From: an uncultured Opitutia bacterium
GTDB lineage: Bacteria > Verrucomicrobiota > Verrucomicrobiia > Opitutales > Opitutaceae
Length of the DNA stretch: 34,545 bases
Direction of reading: 5' to 3'
NCBI GenBank assembly: GCA_903900845.1
Contig: CAIUOU010000030.1
Location: 1-34,545 of the forward strand
In this document: one piece after another, positions 16,050 through 31,440 of the stretch
How the letters are laid out: the number at the start of each line of letters is the position of its first letter
How positions within the stretch are numbered: position 1 is the first letter of the stretch
Notes under the pieces: generated by a model
Seen by the model: only the letters and a program-made list of their open reading frames with translations
What the model was told of the DNA's origin: nothing
Database searches by the model: none
Position numbers and translations under genes: made by a program

Positions 16050-16150
16050 GCCGGCCCGGGCCGCGCGGGCGGTCGCCGGCGGGCGAACGGCTGATTCGGC
16101 GGCGATTTTTGTTGGGTGGCTCCCCGCTCTCCGCCCTCATCTGGGTAATA

Positions 16151-16888
16151 ATGCATCAGGAAACGAGGACCGCGGAGCCTTGGGCTGGGGTTAAACCCAA
16201 GCGGATCCTGATCGTGGAGCCTCTGGAGCTCTTCGCCGCGATGCTCGCCGACACGCTGCGCGCCCAGTCCGGTTTCACGGTTGTGGCTCGCCTCGGCACC
16301 GCCGCCGAAGCGGAGACGGCCCTCGAAAACCGCAGAATCGACTTGGTGCTGCTCAACTTGTCGCTTCCTGACCGGGGCGGACTGGAACTCATCGCCGCCC
16401 TCGGCGAACGGAAGCACCCGGCCCGGATCGTGGTCTGCACCTCGGTGAACCACCCTTCGGCCATCGCCACGGCTTTCGTCCTGGGCGCGCACGCGTTTGT
16501 TGAAAGATCCAGCGGATTGCCGGAACTCGTCGCCACGCTGCGCCGGGTCGCGCGCGGGGAACACTGTCTCGGTCCCCGCGCGGCCGAGGTGCTCCGCAAC
16601 CACGCGAGCGGCCGGGAGGAAACCGAAGTGCTCCAAGCCACCGATCTCACGGTGCTGCGGCGCCTCGCGCTCCGCGAGCCAGTCCGCGACATCGCCGCCA
16701 GCCTCAACCTCTCGGCCTCGGGCGTCTACAAGGTGCGCCGGCGCATCGCCCGCGCGACCGGCGCCCGCACCAAACGCGATTTTCATCGGGCCGCCCTCAC
16801 CCTGGGCCTCGTTCCCGGCGAACCCGTTGGCGCGGCAATCGACGATGGTGCAACCGCCGCCACGGATCGGATAGGCGCCGGCCCATGA
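16151..16888 (+). CDS. Response-regulator-like protein with a non-phosphorylatable receiver (Asp to Asn)
   Basis: 245 residues from the ATG at 16151; a TTG at 16109 is an alternative. The receiver fold (~17-135) is recognisable, but its key residues are changed: the acidic pair is reduced to Glu23 (ILIVEPLELF), the phosphoacceptor is Asn69 (IDLVLLNLSLPDRGG) and the invariant Lys is Arg119 (GAHAFVERSSG). The C-terminal HTH (LRRLALREPVRDIAASLNLS, then ASGVYKVRRRIARATGARTK and a DFHRAALTLGLV tail) matches that of the gene just upstream, so they are paralogues. The protein should not be phosphorylated in the normal way and may act as a constitutive or protein-controlled DNA binder. Its stop overlaps the next start (ATGA, 16885-16888), coupling it to the small HATPase protein. 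Confidence 0.88.
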   Translation: MHQETRTAEPWAGVKPKRILIVEPLELFAAMLADTLRAQSGFTVVARLGTAAEAETALENRRIDLVLLNLSLPDRGGLELIAALGERKHPARIVVCTSVNHPSAIATAFVLGAHAFVERSSGLPELVATLRRVARGEHCLGPRAAEVLRNHASGREETEVLQATDLTVLRRLALREPVRDIAASLNLSASGVYKVRRRIARATGARTKRDFHRAALTLGLVPGEPVGAAIDDGATAATDRIGAGP

Positions 16889-17637
16889 CCGCCAGACGTT
16901 CACCTGCGGCCGCCCCGCCCTTCTGGCGCGAGCCTGAATTCATCGGACGCGCGGTCCATCTCCTGAAGAACCACGCCACCGCGCTTCAGGCCGCGTCCCA
17001 CCTGCTGCTGCAATCCGGCCCCGGGATCGACAAGTCCGCGCGGAAGCGCTGGCGGGCGGCGTTGCGCGATTCCGGCGCCAGGCTGACGCGGTTGCTGGAC
17101 CAGTTGGGCCAACTGGCGCAGGTGCACGAAGGGGGGCCAGACGCCTTCGCGCCCGTACCGCTGGCGAAGTGGCTCGGCGAGCAAGTGCGGGATGCCCGCG
17201 CCGCGGAGCCAAACAGCCGCGTGCGATTGACGCTAGCCCGCAGCCCGGCGGGCGCGTGGCGCCTCTCCGCCGCGCCGGTCGCGGTCGCCTTGGGCGCCCT
17301 CCTGCGCAACGCCCTCGTTCATGCGACCGGTGGGACGCGCGCGAAGCTCACGGTCACCACGCGGCCGGGTGGGCTCCTTTTCGCCATCCGCGACCACGGG
17401 CCGGGCGTCCCGCCTGCGGAACGACCGGTTCTTTTCACCCCGTTCTTCCGCGGGAAGGGCGCGCTCGACCGGCCGGGAGCCGGGCTCGATCTCGCCCTCG
17501 CCCGCGCGGCCGTCGCGCAAACCGGAGGCCGGATCGCCCACCGGCCGGCAAAGCCGCGCGGGGCCCGCTTTGAACTGTTCGTGTCCGCCTCGCGGGCCCG
17601 GAATCCCCGCGTGAACCGTCTCCATACCGACCGATGA
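16885..17637 (+). CDS. Minimal histidine-kinase-like protein (H-box and HATPase only)
   Basis: 250 residues, soluble, with no sensor domain. The N-terminal helix EFIGRAVHLLKNHATALQAA has a candidate phosphorylatable His25 in an H..KN context, and a second helix follows (LRDSGARLTRLLDQLGQLAQ), together resembling a dimerisation domain. The ATPase domain carries an N-box (ALGALLRNALVHA), a G1 box (IRDHGPGVP), an F-box (LFTPFFRGKG) and a G2 box changed from GxGLGL to GAGLDL. Both ends are overlapped by 4 nt (ATGA at 16885 and at 17634), so it is tightly co-expressed with the degenerate regulator before it and the hybrid kinase after it. It could be a kinase controlled by partner proteins, or a phosphotransfer or phosphatase component. 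Confidence 0.83.
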   Translation: MTARRSPAAAPPFWREPEFIGRAVHLLKNHATALQAASHLLLQSGPGIDKSARKRWRAALRDSGARLTRLLDQLGQLAQVHEGGPDAFAPVPLAKWLGEQVRDARAAEPNSRVRLTLARSPAGAWRLSAAPVAVALGALLRNALVHATGGTRAKLTVTTRPGGLLFAIRDHGPGVPPAERPVLFTPFFRGKGALDRPGAGLDLALARAAVAQTGGRIAHRPAKPRGARFELFVSASRARNPRVNRLHTDR

Positions 17638-20525
17638 AAGACCCGATCCGCCTCCTGCACCTGGATGACGACGCCACCGAGCGGGCGGAACTCGGCCGCC
17701 TCGCGCGGGACCAAAACCCGCCTTGGAGCATCACACCGGCCGGTGGCCTCGCGGAGGCGCGCGCCCTGCTCGCGGTGGAGTCGTTCGACGTCATCGTCAC
17801 CGAGGCGCGCTTGCCGGACGGCGCCACCTTTGAGCTTTTCCCCAACGGGAACGCCGCGGCCGGCCGCACCATGCTGCTCGTCACCGGTCGCGGTGACGAG
17901 GGGACCGCGGCCCGCGCGCTCGAGGCCGGCTTTTCCGGCTACGTGGTCAAGCGCGCCGGTCGCGAGCACCTCGCGGAATTGCCCGGACGGATCGCCGCCG
18001 CCCTCGCGGCGCGGGCGGAGCAGCGGACCCTGCGCGAAACTGCCGCCCGGTTGAGCGACCTGTTCGACGGCACGTCGGAGATCATCCAGAGCGTGGATCC
18101 GCAAGGCCGCATTCAGTACGTGAACCGCCGCTGGCGGGAGACCTTCGGCTACGGCGACGAAGAGATCGCGGGGATCAATCTCTTCAACCTCATCCATCCG
18201 GAGGAGCAGGCCCACTGCGGGATGCTGTTCCAGCGCCTGATGTCCGGCGAGGACATCGGCGAGATCGAGACCCGCTTCGTCGCGCGCGACGGCCGCAGCG
18301 TCGTGCTGCGCGGCCGCGCCACCGTGCGGTTCGAGCAGGGCCGCCCGATCGCGACGCGGACGGTCCTCCGCGACGTGACGGCGCAACGCCGGGCGGAGGA
18401 GATCGAGCGCCGGCGAAGCGAGCGCGTCCTGCGCCTCCAGTCGAACCTGCTGCTGCTCCGCGAACGGAGCGACGGGGAGCTCGAGGAGTACCTCGACCTC
18501 GTCGCGCGTTCCACCCGCGAGTCGGTCGGCCTGTCCGTATCTTCGGTCTGGATGCTTTCGCCCGACGGCGTCGTCCTTGAGTGCCGGAGCCGCCGCCGCG
18601 AGACGGCCCCGGGCGGGGCGCGGGTCGCGCGCCCCGCCGACCCCGGACCGGTGCTCGCGGCGATCAACGGAGAGTTCCCCGTCGCGGTGAACCGGCTCGC
18701 TGACTCGCCGGCGCTGGCGGGTCTCGCCGGCACGGACTTTCTGCCGGCGGAAACCACGGGCGCGATCGTGGCGCCGGTGATGCTGCAAGGCCGACCAGCC
18801 GGGTATGTGGTTTTCGCCCGCGAGGCCGAGGGTACGGAGTGGGAGGCCGAGGAGGTGCGGTTCGCGGCCGCCGCGGCCGCCTGCGTCGTGCTGGCTTTCG
18901 AACGCGAGCGCCGCCGCCGGGCGGAGGAGGCGAACCGCGCGCTCCGCCAGAACCTCGAACGACTGGTCGCCGAGCGCACCATCGAACTCGCCGAGTCGGA
19001 GCGGCGCTTCCGCCAGCTCGCGGATAACATCGGCGATGTCTTCTACACCATTGAGCTCGCCACCGGGCGCTTCCTCTACGTCTCACCTGCGTTCGCCAAG
19101 GTCTGGGGCCGTCCGGAGGATCACCTGTGGGCCTCCGACGAGGCCTGGCTCGAGGCCGTCCACGAGGAGGACCGTGCGGCGGCCCGGGACTTCGCCGCCC
19201 GCCGTGGCGCCGGCCCGGCCGAGCTCGAGTACCGCATCCGGCGCCCCGACGGCGTCATCCGGCGCGTGCAGGACCGTTCCTTCCCGGTGTGCGACGCCGC
19301 GGGCGCCGTCTACCGCGCGGCCGGGCTCGCGGTGGACGTGACGGAGAGGCGCAACGCGGAGGCGGGGCGCATGCAGCGCCAGCGGCTCGAGGCGATCGGC
19401 AACCTTGCGAGCGGCATCGCCCACGACCTCAACAACACCCTCACGCCGATCACCCTCGGTCTCCAGCTCCTGCGCCGGAAGCATCCCGGGGAGGACGAGA
19501 TCTACGGGCGCCTGCTGAAGAGCGCCGCGCACGGCAGCAACGTCATCCGCCAGCTGCTCACCTTCGCCCGCGGGGCCGGCGGCGAACGCACGCTCGTGCG
19601 GTCCGGCGAAATCCTCGCCAATTTAGCGGCGCTCGTCGGCGCCATGTTCCCGCGCAACATCCGCGTGCAGACCCGCTGCGCGCCCGACACCCGGCCGGTC
19701 CTCGGCGACTTCACCCAGCTCCAGCAGGTGCTCCTCAACCTCTGCGTGAATTCCCGCGACGCGATGCCCGACGGCGGCTCGCTCGAGATCGAGGCGGGCA
19801 ACCTGCTGGTCGACGCGGCGTACGCCGCGGGGGCGGCCGAGGCGCGCCCCGGCCACTATGTCGTGTGGCGGGTGCAGGACTCGGGGGTGGGTATCCCCAA
19901 GGGTATCATCGGGCAGATCTTCGAGCCCTTCTTCTCCACCAAGGGTCCCGAACCGGGCACCGGGCTGGGGCTCTCCACGCTCGCCGGCATCGTCCGCGAA
20001 CACGGCGGCTTTGTGACCGTGAGCTCCGAACCGCACCGGGGCGCCTGCTTCCGGGTCCACCTGCCGGCGGCCGCGGCAGAACTGGAGACCGGCTCGCAAC
20101 CGGCCGCCACCTCGGTCTCGCCGGCCGCCGCCCCCGCGGCCAGTGGCGCAGGGAGGCATATCCTCGTGGTCGACGACGAGGCACTCGTGCTGGAGACCCT
20201 CTGCGCCACGCTGCAGGGCATGGGTTACCGCACTTCCGCCGCGGCCGACGGCACCGAGGCGCTCATCAGGGCCGCCGAAGAACGCGCCGGACTCCATGCG
20301 CTTGTCACCGACATCCACATGTCGGGCGTCGACGGCCTGAAGCTCATCCGCACCTTGCGGCACATGCTGCCCCGTCTGCCCATCGTGGTCGTCAGCGGCC
20401 GCGTCGACACCGCCCAGCAGCGCGAGCTCGCCCAGGCCGGGGTCGCGCAAATCATCCTCAAGCCATTCACCGAGGAACAGCTGGCGGCCGCGCTCGAAGG
20501 CGCCCTCGCCGGCCCTCAAGGCTGA
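17634..20525 (+). CDS. Soluble hybrid histidine kinase: REC(Glu)-PAS-GAF-PAS-HisKA-HATPase-REC
   Basis: 963 residues and no membrane segment. Domains in order: an N-terminal receiver (1-125) with an acidic cluster Asp11-13 and Lys106 but Glu57 in place of the phosphoacceptor Asp (FDVIVTEARLPDG); PAS (~138-248); GAF-like region (~286-420); a charged coiled coil (~420-455); PAS (~458-570); HisKA with His597 in GIAHDLNNTLTPI; HATPase (~690-815; CVNSRDAMPDGG, DSGVGIP, GTGLGLS); and a C-terminal receiver (~845-960) with Asp893 and a LKPF Lys motif. The C-terminal receiver can accept phosphate from His597, the first step of a relay. The start ATG overlaps the previous stop (ATGA, 17634-17637). A gap of 18 bp separates it from the next kinase. 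The input is probably cytosolic or relayed by a partner through the N-terminal receiver. Confidence 0.92.
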   Translation: MKDPIRLLHLDDDATERAELGRLARDQNPPWSITPAGGLAEARALLAVESFDVIVTEARLPDGATFELFPNGNAAAGRTMLLVTGRGDEGTAARALEAGFSGYVVKRAGREHLAELPGRIAAALAARAEQRTLRETAARLSDLFDGTSEIIQSVDPQGRIQYVNRRWRETFGYGDEEIAGINLFNLIHPEEQAHCGMLFQRLMSGEDIGEIETRFVARDGRSVVLRGRATVRFEQGRPIATRTVLRDVTAQRRAEEIERRRSERVLRLQSNLLLLRERSDGELEEYLDLVARSTRESVGLSVSSVWMLSPDGVVLECRSRRRETAPGGARVARPADPGPVLAAINGEFPVAVNRLADSPALAGLAGTDFLPAETTGAIVAPVMLQGRPAGYVVFAREAEGTEWEAEEVRFAAAAAACVVLAFERERRRRAEEANRALRQNLERLVAERTIELAESERRFRQLADNIGDVFYTIELATGRFLYVSPAFAKVWGRPEDHLWASDEAWLEAVHEEDRAAARDFAARRGAGPAELEYRIRRPDGVIRRVQDRSFPVCDAAGAVYRAAGLAVDVTERRNAEAGRMQRQRLEAIGNLASGIAHDLNNTLTPITLGLQLLRRKHPGEDEIYGRLLKSAAHGSNVIRQLLTFARGAGGERTLVRSGEILANLAALVGAMFPRNIRVQTRCAPDTRPVLGDFTQLQQVLLNLCVNSRDAMPDGGSLEIEAGNLLVDAAYAAGAAEARPGHYVVWRVQDSGVGIPKGIIGQIFEPFFSTKGPEPGTGLGLSTLAGIVREHGGFVTVSSEPHRGACFRVHLPAAAAELETGSQPAATSVSPAAAPAASGAGRHILVVDDEALVLETLCATLQGMGYRTSAAADGTEALIRAAEERAGLHALVTDIHMSGVDGLKLIRTLRHMLPRLPIVVVSGRVDTAQQRELAQAGVAQIILKPFTEEQLAAALEGALAGPQG

Positions 20526-20543: not shown

Positions 20544-23500
20544 ATGATCGAAGAACTGAGCTCCTCGCTGCCGCGCCATCTCGACTACGTCGCCTTTGTC
20601 GTGCTGCTCGCGGCGGGCCTGGGCGCACTGCGCTCCTACCTGCGACGCCGCACCGGGATCCCGCAACGACCCTGGCAGTGGCTTGCCCTCGCCGCCATCG
20701 CCACGGCCTGCTGGTGGCCCGTCAATTGGGCCGGGACAAAGGCGCAGCAGGGCATCCGCGACCTGCTGGTCGACCTCGCCCCGCTCATCGCGGATCAGCT
20801 CGAACAGGGCGGTCACCACCGCATCACGCTGCGGACACCCCCCGACGACCCGGGCTACCTCGCGCTCATCGAGACCCAGCGCAAACTCCTGCGGCTGGCG
20901 CCGCACGTGAGCGACATCTACACGATGCGCGGCACGCCCGACGGGAAGGTCGTGCTCGTGGTGGATTCGGAGACCGACTATGACCGCAACGGCCGGATCG
21001 AGGGGGAGCGCGAGCAGCGCACGCCCATCGGCAAGCCTTACCCGGAGGTCACGCCGGAAATCGAGCGCGCCCTGCGCGGCGAGGCCCTCTTCGAGTTCGA
21101 GCCCGTCACCGACGAGTGGGGCACCTGGATCACCGCGTGGGTGCCGCTGCACCGCCCGGACGGCTCGGTCGAGGCGGCGATGGGGGTGGATTTCTCCGCC
21201 GAGGACTGGGAGGCCGCGCGCCTGCAGGCGCGCGTGACTGCGCTCGGCGTGCTCGCGACCCTCGTGCTGCTCGGCGGGCTCGGGCTGGCCGCGTACCACC
21301 GCGTCCGCGCCCAGCTCTCCGCTCTGGAACAGGCCCAGGGGCAGGTCCGAGACGGCGCGGCCCGCACCCGGCAGATGCTCGACTCCGCGCTCGAGGCGGT
21401 GGTGACCACCGACGGGACCGGCCGCGTCGAGTTCTGGAACCGGCGCGCCGAATCACTCTTCGGCTGGCCGGCCGCCGAGGCGGCCGGCCGCGACCTGGCG
21501 GAGCTCATCGTCGTCGACGAGGACCGCGCCGGTTTCGCGCGGGACTTCCGCCGGTTGGTCGAGACCGGATCCGGAGACGACATCACACGCCGCATCGAGG
21601 TGCGGGCGCGGCGCCGGGACGGGGTGGAGATCCGCACGGAGTTCTCCCCCTCCGTGACGCAGGTCGGAGGCCGGCGGAGCTTCAACGCGTTCATCCGCGA
21701 CGTCACCGAGCGACTCCGCGCCGAGGCCGCGCTGCGCGAGAGCGAGGGCCGCTTCCGCGTGCTCTTCGAGAACGCCGGCGTCTCCATCCTGCTGCAGGAC
21801 GCCGAGACCGGGGCGATCCTCCAAGCCAACCGCAAGGCGATCGAGTCCTACGGGCTCACCTCGCTCGAGGAGCTGCAACGTTTCGACTTCTGGATCGAGC
21901 CTCCCTACTCCGCCGCCGACGTGCTCCGGGTCGTGCACCGGGCCGCCCGCGAGGGCGCCCACCGCTTCGAGTGGAAGAACCGCGACCGCCACGGGCGCGT
22001 CTTCTGGGAGGACGTGGTGCTCGACCGCATCATGGTCGACGGGGTCGTTCGCGTCATCGCGATCGCGCAGGACATCACCGAGCGTAAGCAGGCCGAGACC
22101 GAGATGCGCCGCCTCGCCGGGCGCCTCGCCCGCTCCCAGGAGATCGGCAAGCTCGGCGTCTGGGAGGTCGACCTCGCCACCGGCCGGATCGACTGCTCCG
22201 ACCAGGCGCTCGCCATCTTCGGCCATGACCGCTCCGGCCCGAAGCCGGACCGCAACCTCTTCCGCTCCCTCGTCCACCCCGAGGATCTACCGGGCCACGC
22301 CGCGGGCATCGAACGCGCCGTCCGCACGGGGCAGACCTACATCAACTCCCTGCGGATCATCCGGCCCGACGGGTCAACGCGGAACATCCAGATGCGCGGC
22401 GAGGTGGTGCGCGACGACAGCGAGCGGGTCACCGGGCTCTCCGGCACGGTGATCGACGTCACGGATCTCGTGATCGCCGAGGAGGCGCGCCAGCGCTCCC
22501 GCCGGCAGTTCGAGGTCTTGTTCGAGTCGGCCGTTTCCGCGCTGCTGATGATCGACGGGGAGGGCTGCATCCGCCTGGCGAACCGGCAGACCGAGGAGAT
22601 GATCGGCCGGGCGCGCGCCGAACTGACGGGCCGGCCGCTGCTCGAGATACTGGTTTCCGCGGGCTTCCTGCCCCCCGGGCGCGCCCTGCCCGCGCCGGGC
22701 GAGCAGGTGCGCTCACTGCGCCTCACCGGACGCCGCCGCGACGGCACGGAGTTCACGGGCGAGCTCCACGTCCAGGCCCTGGACAGCGGCCCGGAGGGCG
22801 GCGTGGTCGTGCAGATCGACGACGTGACGGAGCGCGAGCGCGCGCGCCACAACGAACTGCGCGCCCAGCGCATGGAGAGCATCGGCACGCTGGCGGGCGG
22901 GATCGCCCACGATCTGAACAACGCCCTCGCGCCTATCGCCATGGGACTCGAGTTGCTCCGCACCCGCTATCCGCAGAACGCCTCGCTGATCGACACGATG
23001 GAGAAATGCACCCGGCGCGGGGCCGGCATGGTGAAACAGCTGCTCACGTTCGCCCGCGGCACCGAGGGCGAGCGCCGCAGCCTCCAGCCGCGCCGCATCA
23101 TCGACGAGATGGCGCAGATCATCCGCAGCGCGTTCCCCAAGAACATCACCCTCGAGGTCGAGCTCGCGCCCGGCCTGTGGGACGTGATGGGCGACGCCAC
23201 CCAGCTCCACCAGGTGCTGCTCAACCTCTGCGTGAACGCCCGCGACGCCATGCCCGACGGCGGCACCCTCATCATCGAGGCCGCCAACGCCGCGGTCGAC
23301 GGCACCTTCGCCAGCGGCACCGAGGGCGCGCGCGCCGGCAACTTCGCGCGCTGGACCGTGCGCGACACCGGCGCCGGCATGCCGCCCGAGGTGATCCAAC
23401 GCATCTTCGACCCGTTCTTCACCACCAAGGAGCAGGGCAAGGGCACCGGCCTCGGCCTCTCCACCGTGCTCGGGATCGTGTGCAGCCACGAGGGCTTCCT

Positions 23501-23990
23501 CCGCGTCGAGTCCAAGCCGGGCCTTGGCAGCGCCTTCGAGATCTACCTCCCGGCAGCCGCCACCTCCTCCACCGCCGCGACGAGCGAGGCCCGTCCCGGG
23601 GTCTTCCGCGGCAATGGCGAGACCATCCTGGTCGTCGATGACGAGGACACCGTGCGCGAGATCAGCCGCACCGTCCTCACCGGTCTCAACTTCAACGTGC
23701 TGCTCGCCGGCGACGGCACCGAGGCCCTCATCCAGGTTGCCGACCACCCGGGCGAGATCCGGCTCGTCATCACCGACTACGACATGCCGCACATGAACGG
23801 CCAGATGCTCGTGCCCGCGCTCCGCCGCATGATCCCCGAGGCCCGCATCGTCCTCGCCAGCGGCACCCTCGACGAGCAGAAGACCGCCGCCCTCGCCGTC
23901 GAGGGCGTCGACGCCATCCTCGACAAGCCCTTCTCCCAGGCGAAGCTCGTCGAGGCGCTGCAGCAGGCCCTGGACCGGAGCCGCCCGTGA
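20544..23990 (+). CDS. Membrane hybrid histidine kinase with four PAS domains: TM-sensor-TM-PASx4-HisKA-HATPase-REC
   Basis: 1148 residues. Hydrophobic segments near 14-29 and 46-64 precede a ~165-residue probably periplasmic domain (65-230), followed by a further membrane helix (~233-251, ALGVLATLVLLGGLGLAAYH). The extracytoplasmic part contains DTETDYDRNGR-like acidic text and GEALFEFEPVTDEWGTWITA followed by GSVEAAMGVDFS, which resembles the distal part of Cache-type sensors. Four PAS repeats follow (~279-387, 405-512, 534-640, 656-762), several ending in D(V/I)TER. HisKA has His789 in GIAHDLNNALAPI, HATPase has CVNARDAMPDGG and GTGLGLS, and the terminal receiver has Asp1078 (VITDYDMPHMNG) and a DKPF Lys motif. 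The stop codon overlaps the GTG start of the substrate-binding protein gene, linking the two products. Confidence 0.93.
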   Translation: MIEELSSSLPRHLDYVAFVVLLAAGLGALRSYLRRRTGIPQRPWQWLALAAIATACWWPVNWAGTKAQQGIRDLLVDLAPLIADQLEQGGHHRITLRTPPDDPGYLALIETQRKLLRLAPHVSDIYTMRGTPDGKVVLVVDSETDYDRNGRIEGEREQRTPIGKPYPEVTPEIERALRGEALFEFEPVTDEWGTWITAWVPLHRPDGSVEAAMGVDFSAEDWEAARLQARVTALGVLATLVLLGGLGLAAYHRVRAQLSALEQAQGQVRDGAARTRQMLDSALEAVVTTDGTGRVEFWNRRAESLFGWPAAEAAGRDLAELIVVDEDRAGFARDFRRLVETGSGDDITRRIEVRARRRDGVEIRTEFSPSVTQVGGRRSFNAFIRDVTERLRAEAALRESEGRFRVLFENAGVSILLQDAETGAILQANRKAIESYGLTSLEELQRFDFWIEPPYSAADVLRVVHRAAREGAHRFEWKNRDRHGRVFWEDVVLDRIMVDGVVRVIAIAQDITERKQAETEMRRLAGRLARSQEIGKLGVWEVDLATGRIDCSDQALAIFGHDRSGPKPDRNLFRSLVHPEDLPGHAAGIERAVRTGQTYINSLRIIRPDGSTRNIQMRGEVVRDDSERVTGLSGTVIDVTDLVIAEEARQRSRRQFEVLFESAVSALLMIDGEGCIRLANRQTEEMIGRARAELTGRPLLEILVSAGFLPPGRALPAPGEQVRSLRLTGRRRDGTEFTGELHVQALDSGPEGGVVVQIDDVTERERARHNELRAQRMESIGTLAGGIAHDLNNALAPIAMGLELLRTRYPQNASLIDTMEKCTRRGAGMVKQLLTFARGTEGERRSLQPRRIIDEMAQIIRSAFPKNITLEVELAPGLWDVMGDATQLHQVLLNLCVNARDAMPDGGTLIIEAANAAVDGTFASGTEGARAGNFARWTVRDTGAGMPPEVIQRIFDPFFTTKEQGKGTGLGLSTVLGIVCSHEGFLRVESKPGLGSAFEIYLPAAATSSTAATSEARPGVFRGNGETILVVDDEDTVREISRTVLTGLNFNVLLAGDGTEALIQVADHPGEIRLVITDYDMPHMNGQMLVPALRRMIPEARIVLASGTLDEQKTAALAVEGVDAILDKPFSQAKLVEALQQALDRSRP

Positions 23991-24970
23991 ACCACCGCTA
24001 CCGCCGGCGGGCGCTCATCGCCGCGCCCCTTCTGCTCGTCCTCGCGGCGTGCACCCGCGAATCGCCGCCACCGCCGCTGCGGATCGCCGTCAACGTCTGG
24101 CCCGGCTACGATACGCTCTGGCTCGCCGAACAGCTCGGCTTCACCGCCGCCGAGGGCGTCGCCGTGCGCATCCTCACCACCGACGGTCTCGGCGCCTCCC
24201 GCCGGCTTCTCAAGCTCGGCGAGGCCGACCTCATCGGCGGCACCCTCGTCGAGCTCATCGCCTCCTCCGCGTACGACGGGTGCGCGCCCCGCGCCATCTC
24301 CCTGCTCAACGTCTCCCTGGGGCCCGACGTGATTCTGGCGCGGCCCGGCATCAACGGCGTCGCCGAGCTGCGCGGGCGCCGCGTCGGCATCGAGCCCGGC
24401 ACGTCGGACCTCCTGCTGCTCGCCGCGGCGCTCCGCGCTCACGGCCTCGCCCCGGACGACATCCGGGAAGTCCCGCTCTCCCACCCCGCGAAACTCGCGG
24501 CGCTCCGCGCGGGCGAGGTCGACGCCGTCTGCACCTATCCGCCGGAAGCCGAGGAAACGGTCCGCGCCACGGGCGCACGACGGATTTTTTCCAGCGCCGA
24601 CGCCCCGGGGGCGATCATCGACGTGCTGATCGCCGACGCCGCGACGGTGCGGGCGCGCGGCCGGGAGCTGGCGGCGCTGCTGCGCGCCAACCAGCGCGCG
24701 CTGGATACGTTGCGCACCGACCCCGCCGCCCGCCGGCTTTTCGCCCGGCGCGGCGGTGTCACCGAGGAGGAGCTCGCGCGCCAGCTCGCGGGTCTCGAGC
24801 TGCCCAGGCTTTCCAGCCAGCCCGCCCGGTTCGGCCCCGGCGGCACCGTGCGTCTCGCCACCGAAGGCGCCATCCGCGCCCTGCGCGACTACGGGGCCCT
24901 GACCCGGGACATCCCCGCGGCCGAGCTCCTCGAACCCGCCGTCCTGCGCGAGGCGCTGAATCCGCGATGA
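23987..24970 (+). CDS. ABC-type substrate-binding lipoprotein (NMT1/SsuA-like), without transporter
   Basis: 327 residues starting at GTG 23987, which overlaps the previous stop as GTGA. The N-terminus MNHRYRRRALIAAPLLLVLA is followed by AC, giving a lipobox LAAC with Cys22: a lipidated, periplasm-facing protein. The mature part follows the NitT/TauT and thiamine-precursor binding fold: LRIAVNVWPGYDTLWLAEQL, GVAVRILTTDG, EADLIGGTLVELI, LRGRRVGIEPGTSD and GEVDAVCTYPPEAEE. Such proteins bind small organic ligands (sulfonates, nitrate, pyrimidine precursors) for an ABC importer. No permease or ATPase gene is near; the gene is embedded between two membrane hybrid kinases with overlaps at both ends. 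I infer it presents a ligand to one or both kinases. The ligand cannot be told from the sequence. Confidence 0.92.
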   Translation: MNHRYRRRALIAAPLLLVLAACTRESPPPPLRIAVNVWPGYDTLWLAEQLGFTAAEGVAVRILTTDGLGASRRLLKLGEADLIGGTLVELIASSAYDGCAPRAISLLNVSLGPDVILARPGINGVAELRGRRVGIEPGTSDLLLLAAALRAHGLAPDDIREVPLSHPAKLAALRAGEVDAVCTYPPEAEETVRATGARRIFSSADAPGAIIDVLIADAATVRARGRELAALLRANQRALDTLRTDPAARRLFARRGGVTEEELARQLAGLELPRLSSQPARFGPGGTVRLATEGAIRALRDYGALTRDIPAAELLEPAVLREALNPR

Positions 24971-27900
24971 GCAGAGGAACCGGATCCGGCTGGCTCGCGA
25001 TGGTCCGCGCCTCGACCGCGCGGCGGGTGCTCGCGCCGATGTTCGCGGCGATGTTCGTCTGGTCCCTCTACGGCCTCTGGCAGCTCGACCGCACGCTGCA
25101 CTCGGCCGTGCGCGATCCGGCCGTGCTCCGCGCCCGCGCCTACCTCACCTCCGTCGTCACCGCCGCCGAGGCGATCGCCGACGAGACGAAACTGCGCGAG
25201 ATCATCGGCCGCCTAGCGCTCGGCGCCAACCTCGAGCAGCTTGTCATCCTGGGCCTGCCCGAACGGGTGGTCGTCGCCTCGGGCCGGCCCGACGACCTCG
25301 GCCAGCCGCTCGCCCGCCTCGGGGACCCCCGCCTGGTCGCGGACCTGCGCGGCTTTCTCGAGACCGCGGACTTGCGGCCGGGCGTGCGCACCGACGGCGA
25401 AACCGTGGTCGCGCTCGCGCCCATCCAATTGCCGTGGCGGACCTCCGGTCTCCGCGGCATGCCGCGCGAGGCCGTGGTCTACCTGCGCGCTTCGATCGCG
25501 GAGGAACTGGGCCTGGCGCGCGCGGCCGTCGTCTCGCTCTCGCTGCAGCGCATCCTTTTTTCCACCGCCGCCCTCCTCCTCGCCGCGTGGCTGATCCACC
25601 GCTTCGTCCACCGCCCGGCCAACAGCATACGCGACGCCGTGCGGGCGTTCGCGGCCGGCGAGGACGACGCGCGCGTCGGCGGGGTCCACCACGCTGAATT
25701 CGCCCAGCTCGCTGAGGCCGTGAACCAGGCCCTCTCAACCACCCGGGAGGTGCAGGACCGCCTCCGGGTGCTCACCGAGGCGGCACCCACCGGCATCTTC
25801 TCCCTCGACCATCGGGGGGGCTGCCTCTCCACCAATCAGCGTTGGCGCGACATGACCGGCTTATCCGAGGCCGAGGCACTCGGCCACGGCTGGCTTCGCG
25901 CCATCCATCCCGAGGACCGCGAGGCCATGCGCGCCGTGTGGGATTCGCCCGCGACGGCCCGCGACGCCGCGCCGCTCTACCACTGGCTGCAACGCCCCGA
26001 CGGCGCGGAGCGTTGGGTGATACGTACCTTGACCCCGCTGCGCGACCACGCGGGGGCCGTCACCGGGTTCATCGGCAACCTGGCCGACATCACCGAGCTT
26101 CGCGTGCTCCAGGACCGCCTCCGCGGCAGCGAGCAGCAGCAGCGCCTGCTCTTCGAGTCGATGCCTCAGGGCGTCATCATCTACGACCATTCCGGCCGTG
26201 TCATCGAGGCCAACCCGGCGGCCGAGCGTTTCCTCGGCTACTCGCGCGAGGAGCTGGTGCGCGGGGAGCACCGCGCCGGCGTTTCCCAGGGCCCTTTCCG
26301 CGAGGACGGGTCCTTCGTCCCCGTCGAGGAACGCCCTTCCCACGTCAGCCTGCGCGAGCGGCGCGAGGTGCGCGACGTCGTCCTCGGCCTCGTCTCGCGC
26401 CAGGACGGCCGCCTCGGCTGGTATCGCGTCAATGCCATCCCGCTCTTCGCGGGGCGCAACGGCGCCGAGGCCCGAGTCTACTTCACGATGGAGGACATCA
26501 CCGGGATCCGCACCGCGCAGGAGGCGCTGCGGCGCTCGGAGGGCCGTTACCAGGACCTCGTCGAGACCTCGCCGGATCTGATCTTCGAGACCGACATCCG
26601 CGGCGCGCTCACCTACGTGAATCGAACCTGGCGGCAAAGCACGGGCCACGGGCCCGACCGGTTGATCGGACTGCCCTGGTGGCATCTGGAACCGGTGCCC
26701 CCCGGGGGCGCTCGCGCCGCCGGCGAGGCGGCCTTCGGTCGCCTGCTCGCGGACCGCGAGATCAGCGGGGTAGAGCTGGAGTGGCAGTCGGCCGCGGGCG
26801 CGCGGATCAGCGTCGTGGTCAACGCTCGCGTGGTGGCCGGAGCCCAGGGCGAGCCTGCCGGCTTCCGCGGCACCGCCTACGATGTCACCCAGCGCAAGGC
26901 CACGCTCGCCCTCCTCGCCGAAAGCCAGGAGCGCTTTTCCTCTTTCTTCGACCAGGCGGTCGACGCGATGTTCGTGAGCAACGACCAGGGCATCATCCTC
27001 GAGGTGAATCCCGCCGCCTGCCGCCTGCTCGGCCGCACCCGCGAGGGGCTGATCGGTCGCGGGCGCGACGTCATCATCGATCTCTCCGATCCCCGCGCGG
27101 CCGAGGCGGTCGCCCGAAACACGAGCGACGGCCTGTTCCATGGCGAGCTCTACAGCCGCCGCGCCGACGGCGAGCGCTTCGAGGTCGAGGTGACCTCGCA
27201 GACTTACCGTGCGCGCGATGGCCGCCGGCAGGCCGGCACCATCCTGCGCGACATCTCCGCCCGAAAACGCGAGGAGGCGATCCGGCTGCGCTCCCAGCGC
27301 CTGGAAAGCATCGGCACGCTAGCCGGCGGCATCGCCCACGACCTCAACAACGCCCTCGCTCCCATCACCCTCGGCATCACCCTCCTCCAGCGCCGGTTCC
27401 CGGAGCGCGCCGATATCCTCGGGACGCTTCAGGCCAGCGCCACCCGCGCGGCCGGGATGGTGCGCCAGCTCCTGACGTTCGCCCGCGGCGCCGACGGGGA
27501 ACGGAAGCCCGTCGATTCCGCCCGGCTGCTCGACGAGGTGGTCGCGCTCACCGGCAGCACCTTCCCACGCGCCACGACGGTGTCCTGCGAGGCCGCGCCC
27601 GATCTGCCCGACGTCCTCGGCGACGAGACGCAGCTGCACCAGGTGGCGCTCAACCTCTGCGTCAACGCCCGCGACGCCATGCCCTCCGGCGGCGCGCTCC
27701 GCATCACCGCCCGTCGCGAGCAGATCTCCACCGCGGAATCATCCCCGTTGGGCGACCTCCGGCCCGGCCCCCACGTGGTCTGGCGTTTCACCGACACCGG
27801 GTCCGGCATCGACCCCGCGGTGCTTGAGCGCATCTTCGATCCGTTCTTCACCACGAAGCCCGCCGGCGAGGGAACCGGGCTCGGGCTGCCCACCGCGCTG

Positions 27901-28422
27901 GGTATCTTGCGCAGCCACGGCGGCGCCATCCGTGTCGAGTCCCAACCCGGCCGCGGATCCACCTTCAGCGTCTTCCTCCCCGCCGCGGGCCGCGAGGCCA
28001 CCGCGCCCACTCCCGCCACCATCGCCGCCAACCCTGCCGCCGCCGGATGGTCGGGTCGCGGGCAGGTCGTCCTCCTCGTCGAGGACGAGGCCGCGGTGCG
28101 CGAGATCGCCGCCCACGTGCTCCGCAACCTCGGCCTGGAGGTCCAGACCGCCGCCAATGGGGCCGAGGCCGTGCACGCCCTTTCCTCCGGCGCACCTCCC
28201 GCCGTGGTGCTCACCGATTTCCAGATGCCCGTGCTCGATGGGCTCGGGCTTGCCCGCTGGATCCGGGAAAACCGGCCCGACCTCCCCGTGATCGTCGCCA
28301 GCGGCCGCATCGACGAAGCTGGCATCGCGCAGCTGCGCTCCCAGGGCGTCGCGCATTTTCTGCCGAAACCCTTCGAGGAGGAACGTCTCGTCGAGACCCT
28401 GCGCCGCGTGCTGCGCGACTGA
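24967..28422 (+). CDS. Membrane hybrid histidine kinase: TM-sensor-TM-HAMP-PASx4-HisKA-HATPase-REC
   Basis: 1151 residues from ATG 24967, which overlaps the stop of the binding-protein gene (ATGA). The frame stays open far upstream, but that part is a shadow of the binding protein. One membrane helix (~22-38) and another (~190-213, LFSTAALLLAAWLIHRFVHR) bracket a ~150-residue periplasmic sensor of unrecognised type. HAMP (~214-265) follows, then PAS repeats (~268-376, 395-512, 528-642, 658-765), HisKA with His791 in GIAHDLNNALAPI, HATPase (CVNARDAMPSGG, DTGSGIDP, GTGLGLP) and a terminal receiver with Asp1084 (VVLTDFQMPVLDG) and a PKPF Lys motif. From HisKA onward it closely resembles the kinase at 20544-23990, so the two are probably duplicates with different sensors. 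No DNA-binding domain is present; phosphate must pass to a separate protein. Confidence 0.93.
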   Translation: MSRGTGSGWLAMVRASTARRVLAPMFAAMFVWSLYGLWQLDRTLHSAVRDPAVLRARAYLTSVVTAAEAIADETKLREIIGRLALGANLEQLVILGLPERVVVASGRPDDLGQPLARLGDPRLVADLRGFLETADLRPGVRTDGETVVALAPIQLPWRTSGLRGMPREAVVYLRASIAEELGLARAAVVSLSLQRILFSTAALLLAAWLIHRFVHRPANSIRDAVRAFAAGEDDARVGGVHHAEFAQLAEAVNQALSTTREVQDRLRVLTEAAPTGIFSLDHRGGCLSTNQRWRDMTGLSEAEALGHGWLRAIHPEDREAMRAVWDSPATARDAAPLYHWLQRPDGAERWVIRTLTPLRDHAGAVTGFIGNLADITELRVLQDRLRGSEQQQRLLFESMPQGVIIYDHSGRVIEANPAAERFLGYSREELVRGEHRAGVSQGPFREDGSFVPVEERPSHVSLRERREVRDVVLGLVSRQDGRLGWYRVNAIPLFAGRNGAEARVYFTMEDITGIRTAQEALRRSEGRYQDLVETSPDLIFETDIRGALTYVNRTWRQSTGHGPDRLIGLPWWHLEPVPPGGARAAGEAAFGRLLADREISGVELEWQSAAGARISVVVNARVVAGAQGEPAGFRGTAYDVTQRKATLALLAESQERFSSFFDQAVDAMFVSNDQGIILEVNPAACRLLGRTREGLIGRGRDVIIDLSDPRAAEAVARNTSDGLFHGELYSRRADGERFEVEVTSQTYRARDGRRQAGTILRDISARKREEAIRLRSQRLESIGTLAGGIAHDLNNALAPITLGITLLQRRFPERADILGTLQASATRAAGMVRQLLTFARGADGERKPVDSARLLDEVVALTGSTFPRATTVSCEAAPDLPDVLGDETQLHQVALNLCVNARDAMPSGGALRITARREQISTAESSPLGDLRPGPHVVWRFTDTGSGIDPAVLERIFDPFFTTKPAGEGTGLGLPTALGILRSHGGAIRVESQPGRGSTFSVFLPAAGREATAPTPATIAANPAAAGWSGRGQVVLLVEDEAAVREIAAHVLRNLGLEVQTAANGAEAVHALSSGAPPAVVLTDFQMPVLDGLGLARWIRENRPDLPVIVASGRIDEAGIAQLRSQGVAHFLPKPFEEERLVETLRRVLRD

Positions 28423-28562: not shown

Positions 28563-28931
28563 ATGGCGAAACTCCTTCTTGTAGACGACAACCAGGACCT
28601 GCTCGGCATGCAGGGCGAGTTCCTCCGGATGTCGGGTCACGAGGTGGAAACCGCCACCAACGGCGAGGAGGCCATCGCCCACGCCGCCAGCAGCCATTTC
28701 GACCTCATCATCACCGATATCATCATGCCGACCAAGGACGGCATCGAGGTGATCATCACCCTGCGCAAGACGATGCCGGCCCTGAAGGTCATCGCCATCT
28801 CCGGCGGCGGACGGTTGAACGCCAAGGACTACCTCAGCATCGCCCAAAAGCTCGGCGCCGCCGCCACCCTCGCCAAACCGTTCAGCGGTTCCGAATTGGT
28901 GGCCACGGTCGACCGCGTGCTCGCGAACTGA
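28563..28931 (+). CDS. CheY-like single-domain response regulator
   Basis: 122 residues, receiver only. All active-site residues are present: Asp8-Asp9 (LLLVDDNQDLL), phosphoacceptor Asp52 (DLIITDIIMPTKDG), Ser80 (KVIAISGGG) and Lys105 (LAKPFSGSEL). With no output domain, it could be a phosphate shuttle or act by protein contact. It follows the third hybrid kinase on the same strand after 140 bp. The start is the ATG at 28563; the frame is open upstream, but that text is a shadow of the kinase gene. Confidence 0.93.
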   Translation: MAKLLLVDDNQDLLGMQGEFLRMSGHEVETATNGEEAIAHAASSHFDLIITDIIMPTKDGIEVIITLRKTMPALKVIAISGGGRLNAKDYLSIAQKLGAAATLAKPFSGSELVATVDRVLAN

Positions 28932-29919: not shown

Positions 29920-30279
29920 TCACGCCGTCAGCCGGCGCACCTCGCTGAGAACACGCGCCAGCGGCGCCGTCTTCGGCAAATAGGCGGTCACAAGCTTGCT
30001 GATCGAATCACGCACGACCTCCTCGTCGAACAGGATCCCGGTGAGCAGGATCACCGGCAGCGCCGGGAGCTTCGCGCGGATCTTGGCGATCATCGCGAGG
30101 CCGTCCGAGTCCTCGAGCTGCAGATCGGAGATCAGCAGGTCAGGCGGATCGGAGTCGACCACACTGAACGCCTGCAGCGCCGAGGGAGCCTCCGTCACCC
30201 GGAAACCGCTCTGGGTGAACATCTGCGAAAGGATCTCCCGGATCGGGGCCTCGTCGTCGACGATGAGAATGTGCTTCAT
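29920..30279 (-). CDS. Single-domain response regulator (receiver)
   Basis: 119 residues, receiver only, with Asp8-Asp9 (ILIVDDEAPIREI), phosphoacceptor Asp52 (DLLISDLQLEDSDG), Thr80 (VILLTGILFD) and Lys103 (AYLPKTAPL). It is the last gene of a three-gene minus-strand operon, 21 bp after the CHASE3-PAS sensor. With no kinase or DNA-binding domain in the operon, it must take phosphate from, or signal to, proteins encoded elsewhere; the convergent kinase cluster about 1.5 kb away is a possible partner. Confidence 0.92.
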   Translation of the reverse strand: MKHILIVDDEAPIREILSQMFTQSGFRVTEAPSALQAFSVVDSDPPDLLISDLQLEDSDGLAMIAKIRAKLPALPVILLTGILFDEEVVRDSISKLVTAYLPKTAPLARVLSEVRRLTA

Positions 30280-30300
30280 GAATTTGAATCCCAGGCCGGT

Positions 30301-31440
30301 TCAGGCGCCGGTGTCCCGCGTCCGCAGGATGACGACCCCGCCCACGACGCGGTCACGGTCCCGTAGCGGGAAAAGCTTGAACGAGACCGGCGTCTCGCGA
30401 CCCGACCGATCCTGCACGAAGGCCTCGGCCTCGCGGTACTCCCGGCCCTCGCGCAGGGCCTGCGCCAGAGGATCGAAGCCCGCGGGTCGCGCCGCGCCAC
30501 CGAGGCGCACGAGGCTCTGCAGCGGGCGGTTGACCAGCTCTTTGGTCTCGAAGCCGGTGGCGTGCGTCACCGCCGGATTGAGACGGGAAATGTTCTGCGC
30601 CTTGGTGAGCACGAACACCAGGTCGCTGATCGAGTTCACGATGAGCTCGTTGTAGCGCAGCTGGTGCTCCAGCGCCTGGGAGCCCCAGGCCCGCTCGAGG
30701 TTCTCCGCGCGCAGCACCTCGTTGGCGTTCGCCAGCTCGGTCGTACGCTCCCGCACGCGCAACTCCAGCCGCTCGTTGGCCTCGTGCAGCACTTCCGCCG
30801 CCCGCCGCCGCGCCCGCACGTCGTCGCGCACCAGCCAGCCAGCCAGGCCTAGCAGCAGGAAATTCAGCACCACGCCGGTGCCCACGGTCCAGCGCGTCGT
30901 CTGCGCCTGCAGGTAAGCCTCCCCGTCCCGCGCCGCCAGCAACGCCATCTGCTCCGTCTTGAGCTTCTCCACCCCTCGCCGCACCTCGGCGGTCGAACCC
31001 GCCGCCGTGTCGGCCAGGACCAGCGAGCGGATCCGGTCGGGCTGGGCCGCGCGGCGGGCCGCCAGCGCCTCGCGGGTGAGCGTTGCGCGCCCTTCCGCCA
31101 GCGCGTCAAGCCGCTCCAACGCCGGACCCGCCGCACGGTCCGAGCGCAGCAGCGCCCGCAGGACCTCGAGGTTTTCCAGCACCGCGGCGCTCGCCTCCCG
31201 GCAAGCCGCCTCGTCCTGCTCCGATCCCGTCACGAGCAACGTCCTCAGCGCCGCGTCGCTCGCCTGGAAGGATCCGCGCAGGGCGCCCAGCTCCAGAATC
31301 GCCGCATGGGTCTGGTTAACCCAGTCGTTGCTCGCCGTCGCCCGGCTGATGTTGCGCAACGCCACCACCGCCACAACCACCAGGACGGCGGCCACGGTGG
31401 CGAACAGGGCCACGATACGGCGGATGATCGGATCGCTCAC
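30301..31440 (-). CDS. CHASE3-PAS membrane sensor without catalytic output domain
   Basis: 379 residues from a GTG at 31440. A membrane helix (~7-29, ALFATVAAVLVVVAVVALR) is followed by a helical extracytoplasmic region (~30-180) with the look of CHASE3 (..ASNDWVNQTHAAILELGALR.., LVTGSEQDEAACREA). A second membrane helix (~183-203) follows, then a long charged coiled coil with ERLELRVRERTTELANANEV and a PAS domain (~258-375, NELIVNSISDLVFVLTKAQN). The protein then ends. This is the front half of a typical CHASE3-PAS histidine kinase, but HisKA, HATPase and GGDEF domains are all missing; the next ORF begins 21 bp later. It is either a natural sensor that works through protein contacts or a truncated kinase. 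Confidence 0.85.
   Translation of the reverse strand: MSDPIIRRIVALFATVAAVLVVVAVVALRNISRATASNDWVNQTHAAILELGALRGSFQASDAALRTLLVTGSEQDEAACREASAAVLENLEVLRALLRSDRAAGPALERLDALAEGRATLTREALAARRAAQPDRIRSLVLADTAAGSTAEVRRGVEKLKTEQMALLAARDGEAYLQAQTTRWTVGTGVVLNFLLLGLAGWLVRDDVRARRRAAEVLHEANERLELRVRERTTELANANEVLRAENLERAWGSQALEHQLRYNELIVNSISDLVFVLTKAQNISRLNPAVTHATGFETKELVNRPLQSLVRLGGAARPAGFDPLAQALREGREYREAEAFVQDRSGRETPVSFKLFPLRDRDRVVGGVVILRTRDTGA

Follow-up and report, generated by a model that had tools for sequence, protein, structure and literature searches.

We found that a solute-binding lipoprotein (SBP) encoded in an uncultured Opitutia bacterium (Verrucomicrobiota) probably forms a two-protein receptor with the hybrid kinase encoded directly downstream (K2); the SBP would bind the ligand and K2 would be the membrane half. 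Both genes lie on the plus strand of contig CAIUOU010000030.1, analyzed at its full length of 34,545 nucleotides (hereafter the window; it is the entire contig C30 of a 4.4-Mb genome that is 96% complete), the SBP gene at 23987-24970 (327 amino acids [aa], GTG start) and K2 at 24967-28422 (1151 aa, ATG start). We favor a two-protein receptor because the predicted fold of the SBP is intact, no transporter is encoded beside it, its clade is paired with a Cache-like receptor, and SBP and sensor appear to have co-evolved.

The SBP is a member of the Pfam family NMT1/THI5-like (PF09084), which it matches with 55.2 bits (cut-off 20.5, E 1e-14). Its leader, MNHRYRRRALIAAPLLLVLAAC, with a LAAC lipobox (Cys22), was read by eye as a lipoprotein signal. 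The AlphaFold2 model (predicted local distance difference test, pLDDT, 94.5) has a two-lobe fold with TauA and SsuA as nearest neighbors in Foldseek, and at 17 of 21 columns with a conservation of 80% or more the protein is identical to 17 relatives, the start Met and the lipid Cys included. By analogy, the nearest structures, which bind taurine-like compounds, sulfonates, pyrimidines or PQQ (pyrroloquinoline quinone), provide a weak hint to the ligand. The permease and ATPase genes that mark the binding protein of an ATP-binding cassette (ABC) importer do not lie alongside: the window contig has no match to the BPD_transp_1 permease family, and queries with the SsuB-type ATPase and the permease of the same genome gave no match in the window at E 1e-3. 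The SBP gene overlaps its neighbors by 4 nucleotides (nt) on either side, at a GTGA junction with the upstream hybrid kinase K1 and at an ATGA junction with K2. The original prediction, made from the letters of the window, had described these coordinates, these overlaps and a window free of ABC permease and ATPase, and was right in all three (for ABC genes of NMT1-type). Overlaps of 4 nt are commonplace within operons, and the genome holds 37 HATPase_c domains, 4 of them on the window contig; hence, we place weight on conservation and not on the overlaps.

K2 is composed of a transmembrane (TM) helix, a periplasmic sensor (residues ~41-195), a second TM helix, HAMP, four PAS domains, HisKA, HATPase_c and a receiver, as annotated with Pfam (the HAMP match falls just short of the cut-off, and the first TM helix, ~22-40, was assigned by eye, the hydropathy scan being under its threshold there). 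The periplasmic sensor domain (25072-25560, plus strand) is predicted with confidence by AlphaFold2 to be a single-Cache-like fold (pLDDT 92.9, a single domain of ~155 residues) and has weak Foldseek matches to PctD, WalK and KinD (E down to 3e-5). It falls into no Cache or PAS family of Pfam, with zero families matched at E up to 1, so a known Pfam sensor family was rejected; sCache_3_2 gave a weak match (0.0016) in one of 19 sensor rows, and a search of PDB sequences with the K2 sensor found no match. The periplasmic parts of K2 and of the other SBP-linked kinases can be aligned, at 10-24% identity to the window. A sensor profile built without the window matches K2 with 40.7 bits and leaves K1 and the further kinase K0 unmatched; with the two nearest relatives also removed, K2 still reaches 19.0 bits (E 1.7e-7 in a set of three proteins). 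Applied to 372 genomes of the order, with the best 10 candidates per genome scored, the profile gave 16 matches, 7 of them profile rows; 14 of the 16 adjoin an SBP match, or seven of nine once the profile-building rows are set aside. The two sensor matches without an adjoining SBP match are in genomes G051 and G128.

The genome itself carries four NMT1 matches (on contigs C71, C147, C129 and the window). A partner ABC system encoded elsewhere had been named in the original prediction as something that would speak against it; two NMT1-type systems were found, on C71 and C147, where NMT1 genes adjoin the ABC genes, so that each system has an NMT1 protein of its own. The other two NMT1 genes, those of the window and of C129, have no visible ABC neighbor, and both precede a kinase. 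The C129 pair (L049:1667-4221) consists of an SBP, truncated by the contig end and 36% identical to the window SBP over residues 126-278, and a downstream kinase of 609 aa (HAMP, PAS, HisKA, HATPase_c), which overlaps the SBP gene by 4 nt and whose sensor belongs to the K2 family.

Of 95 genomes searched with the window SBP, 37 (its own among them) gave a match at E up to 0.001. Reference domains were used to annotate 40 stretches, of which 37 belong to other genomes and 3 to its own. Apart from the C129 pair, a kinase gene immediately follows the SBP in nine loci (L052, L053, L055, L057, L058, L059, L068, L074 and L075), and most of the remaining loci have the SBP beside ABC genes; in L078, L083 and L087 neither a kinase nor an ABC gene adjoins the SBP, and in L079 the kinase is upstream. 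In a scan of 372 genomes of the order, a profile of kinase-linked SBPs (A1) matched at least 68 with E no higher than 1e-30 (a lower bound, the best five candidates per genome having been scored). In 20 further loci the SBP score separated the two contexts, with signaling genes next to all 11 SBPs of 254 bits or more and ABC genes next to all nine of 212 bits or less. Among these signaling genes, that of L125 is a HAMP-PAS protein with no kinase core and that of L128 a kinase with a dCache_1 sensor; L124, L125 and L126 match the sensor profile weakly (19 to 24 bits). The exact 4-nt overlap was found in 11 of the 17 SBP-receptor pairs with a readable junction (L055, L121, L125, L126 and L128, with unclear starts, were omitted). 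At the level of the phylum, the A4 profile matched 39 of 288 genomes at E 1e-50. Two fusions were also observed: in L088 (9470-13225, genome G052) a single frame of 1251 aa combines an NMT1 domain (138 bits) with PAS and HisKA, and the kinase core continues in a second frame; this NMT1 domain scores 12 bits against the A4 profile and belongs to a different subfamily. In L132 (7016-9154) a 712-aa protein is made of two fused SBP domains, and an ABC permease and an ATPase are encoded next to it.

The pairing extends far outside the order. An earlier scan of contigs from named genomes with the window SBP alone as query had found no relative; with six kinase-linked SBPs as queries (A6), 184 relatives were found and the best 80 kept. 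These 80 loci were ranked by SBP similarity and not by their neighbors, and they sample the kinase-linked clade because the A6 rows are themselves kinase-linked; five are query rows (L157, L161, L173, L220 and L228). The next gene carries a K2-type sensor in 74 of the 80 loci (69 of 75 without the query rows). By reference domains, 66 of these receptors have a HisKA-type core, two are cut by a contig end and six have no such core, namely five with GGDEF or GGDEF-EAL (L164, L168, L170, L182 and L213) and one with HisKA_2 (L177). The 74 loci are distributed over eight phyla: Pseudomonadota (49), Verrucomicrobiota (8), Planctomycetota (5), Bdellovibrionota (4), Acidobacteriota (3) and Myxococcota, Bacteroidota and Chlamydiota (1 each, all three resting on one metagenome-assembled genome, where misbinning is possible), with two loci that have no phylum assigned. 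Only 15 of the 74 have the exact 4-nt overlap between SBP and receptor (taking the nearest start codon), and it is therefore not a general mark of the pair. The 80 stretches, 930 kb together, gave no ABC ATPase or permease resembling the references; the same ATPase probe was positive in other loci. The neighboring genes gave no guide to the ligand, being mixed across 69 loci: among their 257 neighboring open reading frames (ORFs) the largest homolog group spans eight loci and the next seven, and those that can be named are receiver or kinase genes. A strain is named in 13 of the 80 titles, and cultured isolates include Shewanella, Pseudoalteromonas, Deefgea and Pseudomonas fluvialis. Within the genus of locus L183, a family-level SBP score was reached only in the genome of L183 among 99 genomes (320 bits vs 152 for the next).

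The phylogenetic tree of 84 SBPs (54 signaling-linked, 27 transporter-linked and 3 with neither partner; 36 of the 80 named loci were included, and the one-lobe SBP of L074, described below, was omitted) separated the two contexts. A single receptor clade (Shimodaira-Hasegawa-like approximate likelihood ratio test [SH-aLRT] 97) holds 52 of the 54 signaling-linked SBPs, the window SBP among them, and the three with neither partner, while 22 of the 27 transporter-linked SBPs form another clade (SH-aLRT 100) and none falls within the receptor clade. With kinase- and transporter-linked rows only, two label changes suffice. The other two signaling-linked SBPs, L068 and L128, form a separate branch (100) next to a transporter-linked row (81), and their kinases (L068:2543-6183 and L128:5677-10484) have no SBP-linked sensor match and instead match dCache_1 (below the cut-off in L068); because of this separate branching and the different sensors, they likely represent a second, independent recruitment of SBPs to kinases. 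In the two Caenispirillum loci of the named set (L219:5911-8078 and L221:5890-8158), a receptor-clade SBP is followed by a histone-deacetylase-like gene.

Co-evolution was assessed by comparing trees for 77 of 82 SBP-receptor pairs (five were dropped for want of a clear kinase core). Tree distances correlated at 0.75 between SBP and sensor, 0.34 between SBP and kinase core and 0.28 between sensor and kinase core, the gap between the first two being 0.41 (bootstrap 0.31-0.50), and each of the three values lies above all those from 1000 permutations. Without close pairs the correlations were 0.70 for SBP-sensor vs 0.28 for SBP-core, and the rank correlations 0.69 vs 0.31. Shared history alone would not produce such a gap, because sensor and core are parts of one polypeptide. 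The output varies (HisKA-type kinase, HisKA_2, GGDEF, GGDEF-EAL) while SBP and sensor stay constant, and the simplest reading of these trees is that SBP and sensor make up one functional unit with an exchangeable output. The pair has two features expected of an SBP-activated kinase, an SBP gene tied to a kinase with a periplasmic sensor and co-evolution of the SBP with that sensor.

The original prediction had proposed that the SBP serves a single ligand-sensing complex with two kinase outputs, K1 (20544-23990, plus strand, 1148 aa; by Pfam, PAS repeats, HisKA, HATPase_c and a C-terminal receiver) being the second. The SBP would then bind both K1 and K2, and one ligand would feed two phosphorelays. 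The gene does overlap its neighbors on both sides, and the order of K0 (17634-20525, plus strand), K1, SBP, K2 and a single-domain receiver protein (28563-28931, plus strand) is found in three species if remnants are counted: the window, L074 (in genome G025, from the same genus) and L155 (in G051, from the same family), where the receiver has 57% and 54% identical copies, respectively, at the same place. In both relatives the SBP or its remnant also overlaps K1 by 4 nt. The SBP itself has decayed in each, according to single assemblies. In L074 (10525-11148) an in-frame loss has removed the equivalent of window residues 92-216, which on the window model comprise both presumed hinge strands (101-110 and 211-217) and all of lobe 2, and with them the inter-lobe pocket; in L155 only an 83-aa ORF (7634-7885, minus strand) lies between K1 and K2, with a leader like that of the L074 SBP, and is apparently the remnant of a lost SBP. 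The K1 and K2 frames remain open in both, so the array outlasts the intact SBP in two species. Moreover, the K1 sensor, unmatched by the SBP-linked profile, occurs in 32 of 303 genomes including its own, and of the 31 others only that of G051 is known from a similar array, the one with the SBP remnant; none of the remaining places is near an SBP position listed in the order-wide scan, as judged by comparing contigs and positions, neighborhoods not having been fetched. A shared complex is unlikely on these grounds. With a sensor outside the profile that is not seen near such SBPs elsewhere, bar that one remnant array, K1 is probably a neighbor with a different sensor and not the conserved partner of the SBP. 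Conservation of the kinase-SBP-kinase order, which the original prediction had put forward as a check, thus came out divided: an SBP with a downstream kinase is widespread, while the full sandwich is found in only two other species, with a decayed SBP. The sandwich is local and the conserved unit is the SBP with its downstream receptor. The proposal that a transporter-less SBP presents a ligand to a kinase is supported; that of one complex with two outputs is not favored.

The decayed SBPs raise another explanation, that the SBP is being lost and is dispensable, with K2 now sensing directly, as the open kinase frames of L074 and L155 would allow. We consider this very improbable for the window, where the SBP is full length, is predicted with confidence to fold and keeps most of the conserved positions. 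An orphan transport protein that serves an importer encoded elsewhere, with the kinases adjacent by chance, would agree with the usual role of NMT1 proteins as importer subunits and with the two NMT1-type ABC systems of the genome. However, both systems possess NMT1 proteins of their own, the transporter-linked SBPs stay out of the receptor clade, and 74 of the 80 named loci pair their SBPs with receptors, none of the 80 having NMT1-type ABC genes in the stretch, which makes this explanation very improbable.

Several observations weigh against the two-protein receptor itself. Residue +2 after the lipid Cys is Thr, and by the Escherichia coli +2 rule a Thr in this position directs a lipoprotein to the outer membrane. 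The letter make-up of the SBP is unusual, its branch is long (1.81) and its position inside the receptor clade unsure, and the window row taken alone fits the co-evolution more poorly (r 0.57 for SBP-sensor, 0.12 for SBP-core). SBP and kinase-core trees, too, correlate beyond chance (0 of 1000 permutations). Six named loci have no sensor gene next to the SBP (L195 and L222, at contig ends, and L171, L227, L219 and L221). Receptors with a K2-type sensor occur in G051 and G128 with no intact SBP gene beside them, so that a receptor can persist without its SBP. Adjacency can mislead, since SBPs encoded near AgtS and AruS gave no evidence of activating these kinases (PMC11113362).

If the two-protein receptor is nevertheless correct, a small molecule would close the two lobes of the SBP, and the closed, loaded SBP would dock on the Cache-like domain of K2, its likely docking site. 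The signal would then pass through the second membrane helix to HAMP, the PAS repeats and the HisKA/HATPase core, from where phosphate would be handed to the K2 receiver and then to further regulators, which may include the protein encoded at 28563 (Pfam Response_reg, start codon assigned by eye). K1, in the same gene array, would sense something of its own. The rest of the array is also dedicated to signaling. By Pfam, K0 has two receivers, PAS, GAF, PAS, HisKA and HATPase_c; upstream of it are a response regulator (16109-16888, plus strand), which overlaps the next gene by 4 nt, and a 250-aa HATPase_c protein (16885-17637, plus strand) with a 4-nt overlap on either side. At E 1e-5 neither the L074 nor the L155 stretch contains a match to the response regulator; for the HATPase_c protein, L074 gave none and L155 only a weak one, inside its K0 counterpart. 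Further signaling genes face the array from the minus strand (29920-31440), coding for a receiver protein and a CHASE3-PAS protein. Scans for promoters and terminators were uninformative for the array.

Like the SBP-K2 pair, the known systems LuxP-LuxQ, TorT-TorS, XylFII-LytS and BctC-BctE each consist of a periplasmic binding protein and a membrane kinase. LuxP, TorT and XylFII belong to other SBP families than NMT1. The principle of a binding protein acting on a kinase, for which the original prediction had invoked LuxP-LuxQ, is established: in LuxPQ and TorS a periplasmic binding protein signals through a membrane kinase (PMC8534201), and BctC-BctE and XylFII-LytS (the latter from a title cited there) likewise combine a binding protein and a kinase (PMC9602780). 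The sensors differ, being tandem PDC domains in LuxQ and helical in TorS (PMC8534201) but a predicted single-Cache-like domain in K2. BctC is of the TctC family (PMC9602780) and also serves a transporter, whereas the window SBP is of the NMT1 family with no transporter beside it. Membership in LuxPQ was rejected, given the NMT1 family of the SBP, the single-domain sensor and a Foldseek E of only 0.058 for LuxQ (3c38). TauA and SsuA share fold and Pfam family with the SBP but work with a permease and an ATPase; the clade of the window SBP has none alongside and lies apart from the sampled transporter-linked SBPs. WalK, KinD and PctD are single-Cache/PDC sensors of similar predicted fold, from which K2 differs in having no Pfam family or PDB sequence match. 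Binding proteins also drive cyclic di-GMP (c-di-GMP) enzymes: ScrABC encodes an SBP with such an enzyme (PMC10269520), and NspS controls the GGDEF-EAL enzyme MbaA (title cited in PMC11113362). NspS-MbaA and ScrB-ScrC thus resemble the relatives L164, L170 and L182, whereas the output of the window is a kinase. In L156, a sensor-family receptor without an SBP (upstream of 7115, minus strand) has upstream of it a frame that by eye resembles a pyridoxal phosphate-dependent enzyme, recalling ScrA of ScrABC.

That kinases and c-di-GMP enzymes can be driven by binding proteins is established (PMC8534201, PMC9602780, PMC11113362, PMC10269520). Only about 10 sensor kinases activated in this way are counted as characterized, and 13 of the 22 SBP families encountered in that work are known to act on receptors (PMC9602780). 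A report of an NMT1 protein paired with a kinase was not found in the open-licence literature, including the accessible parts of PMC8534201, PMC11113362, PMC9602780, PMC10269520 and PMC11264596. As far as that literature shows, the principle of an SBP acting on a kinase is known and the pairing of NMT1 with a Cache-like receptor is new.

We lean towards a broader reading, in which the window belongs to a phylum-spanning class of two-protein receptors, where a clade of NMT1 lipoproteins and an unnamed Cache-like sensor act as a cassette set on kinase, GGDEF or GGDEF-EAL outputs, with the lipoprotein cut to one lobe or lost in some lineages and the receptor staying. If this is true, a cassette found in 74 of 80 loci and eight phyla would greatly raise the number of cases over those characterized (PMC9602780), and a sensor domain that has no name would gain a function. 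The one-lobe and remnant SBPs would offer a natural test of how a receptor behaves without its binding protein. The ligand of the whole receptor class would be findable by screening one soluble protein, and some of the pairs are in cultured isolates.

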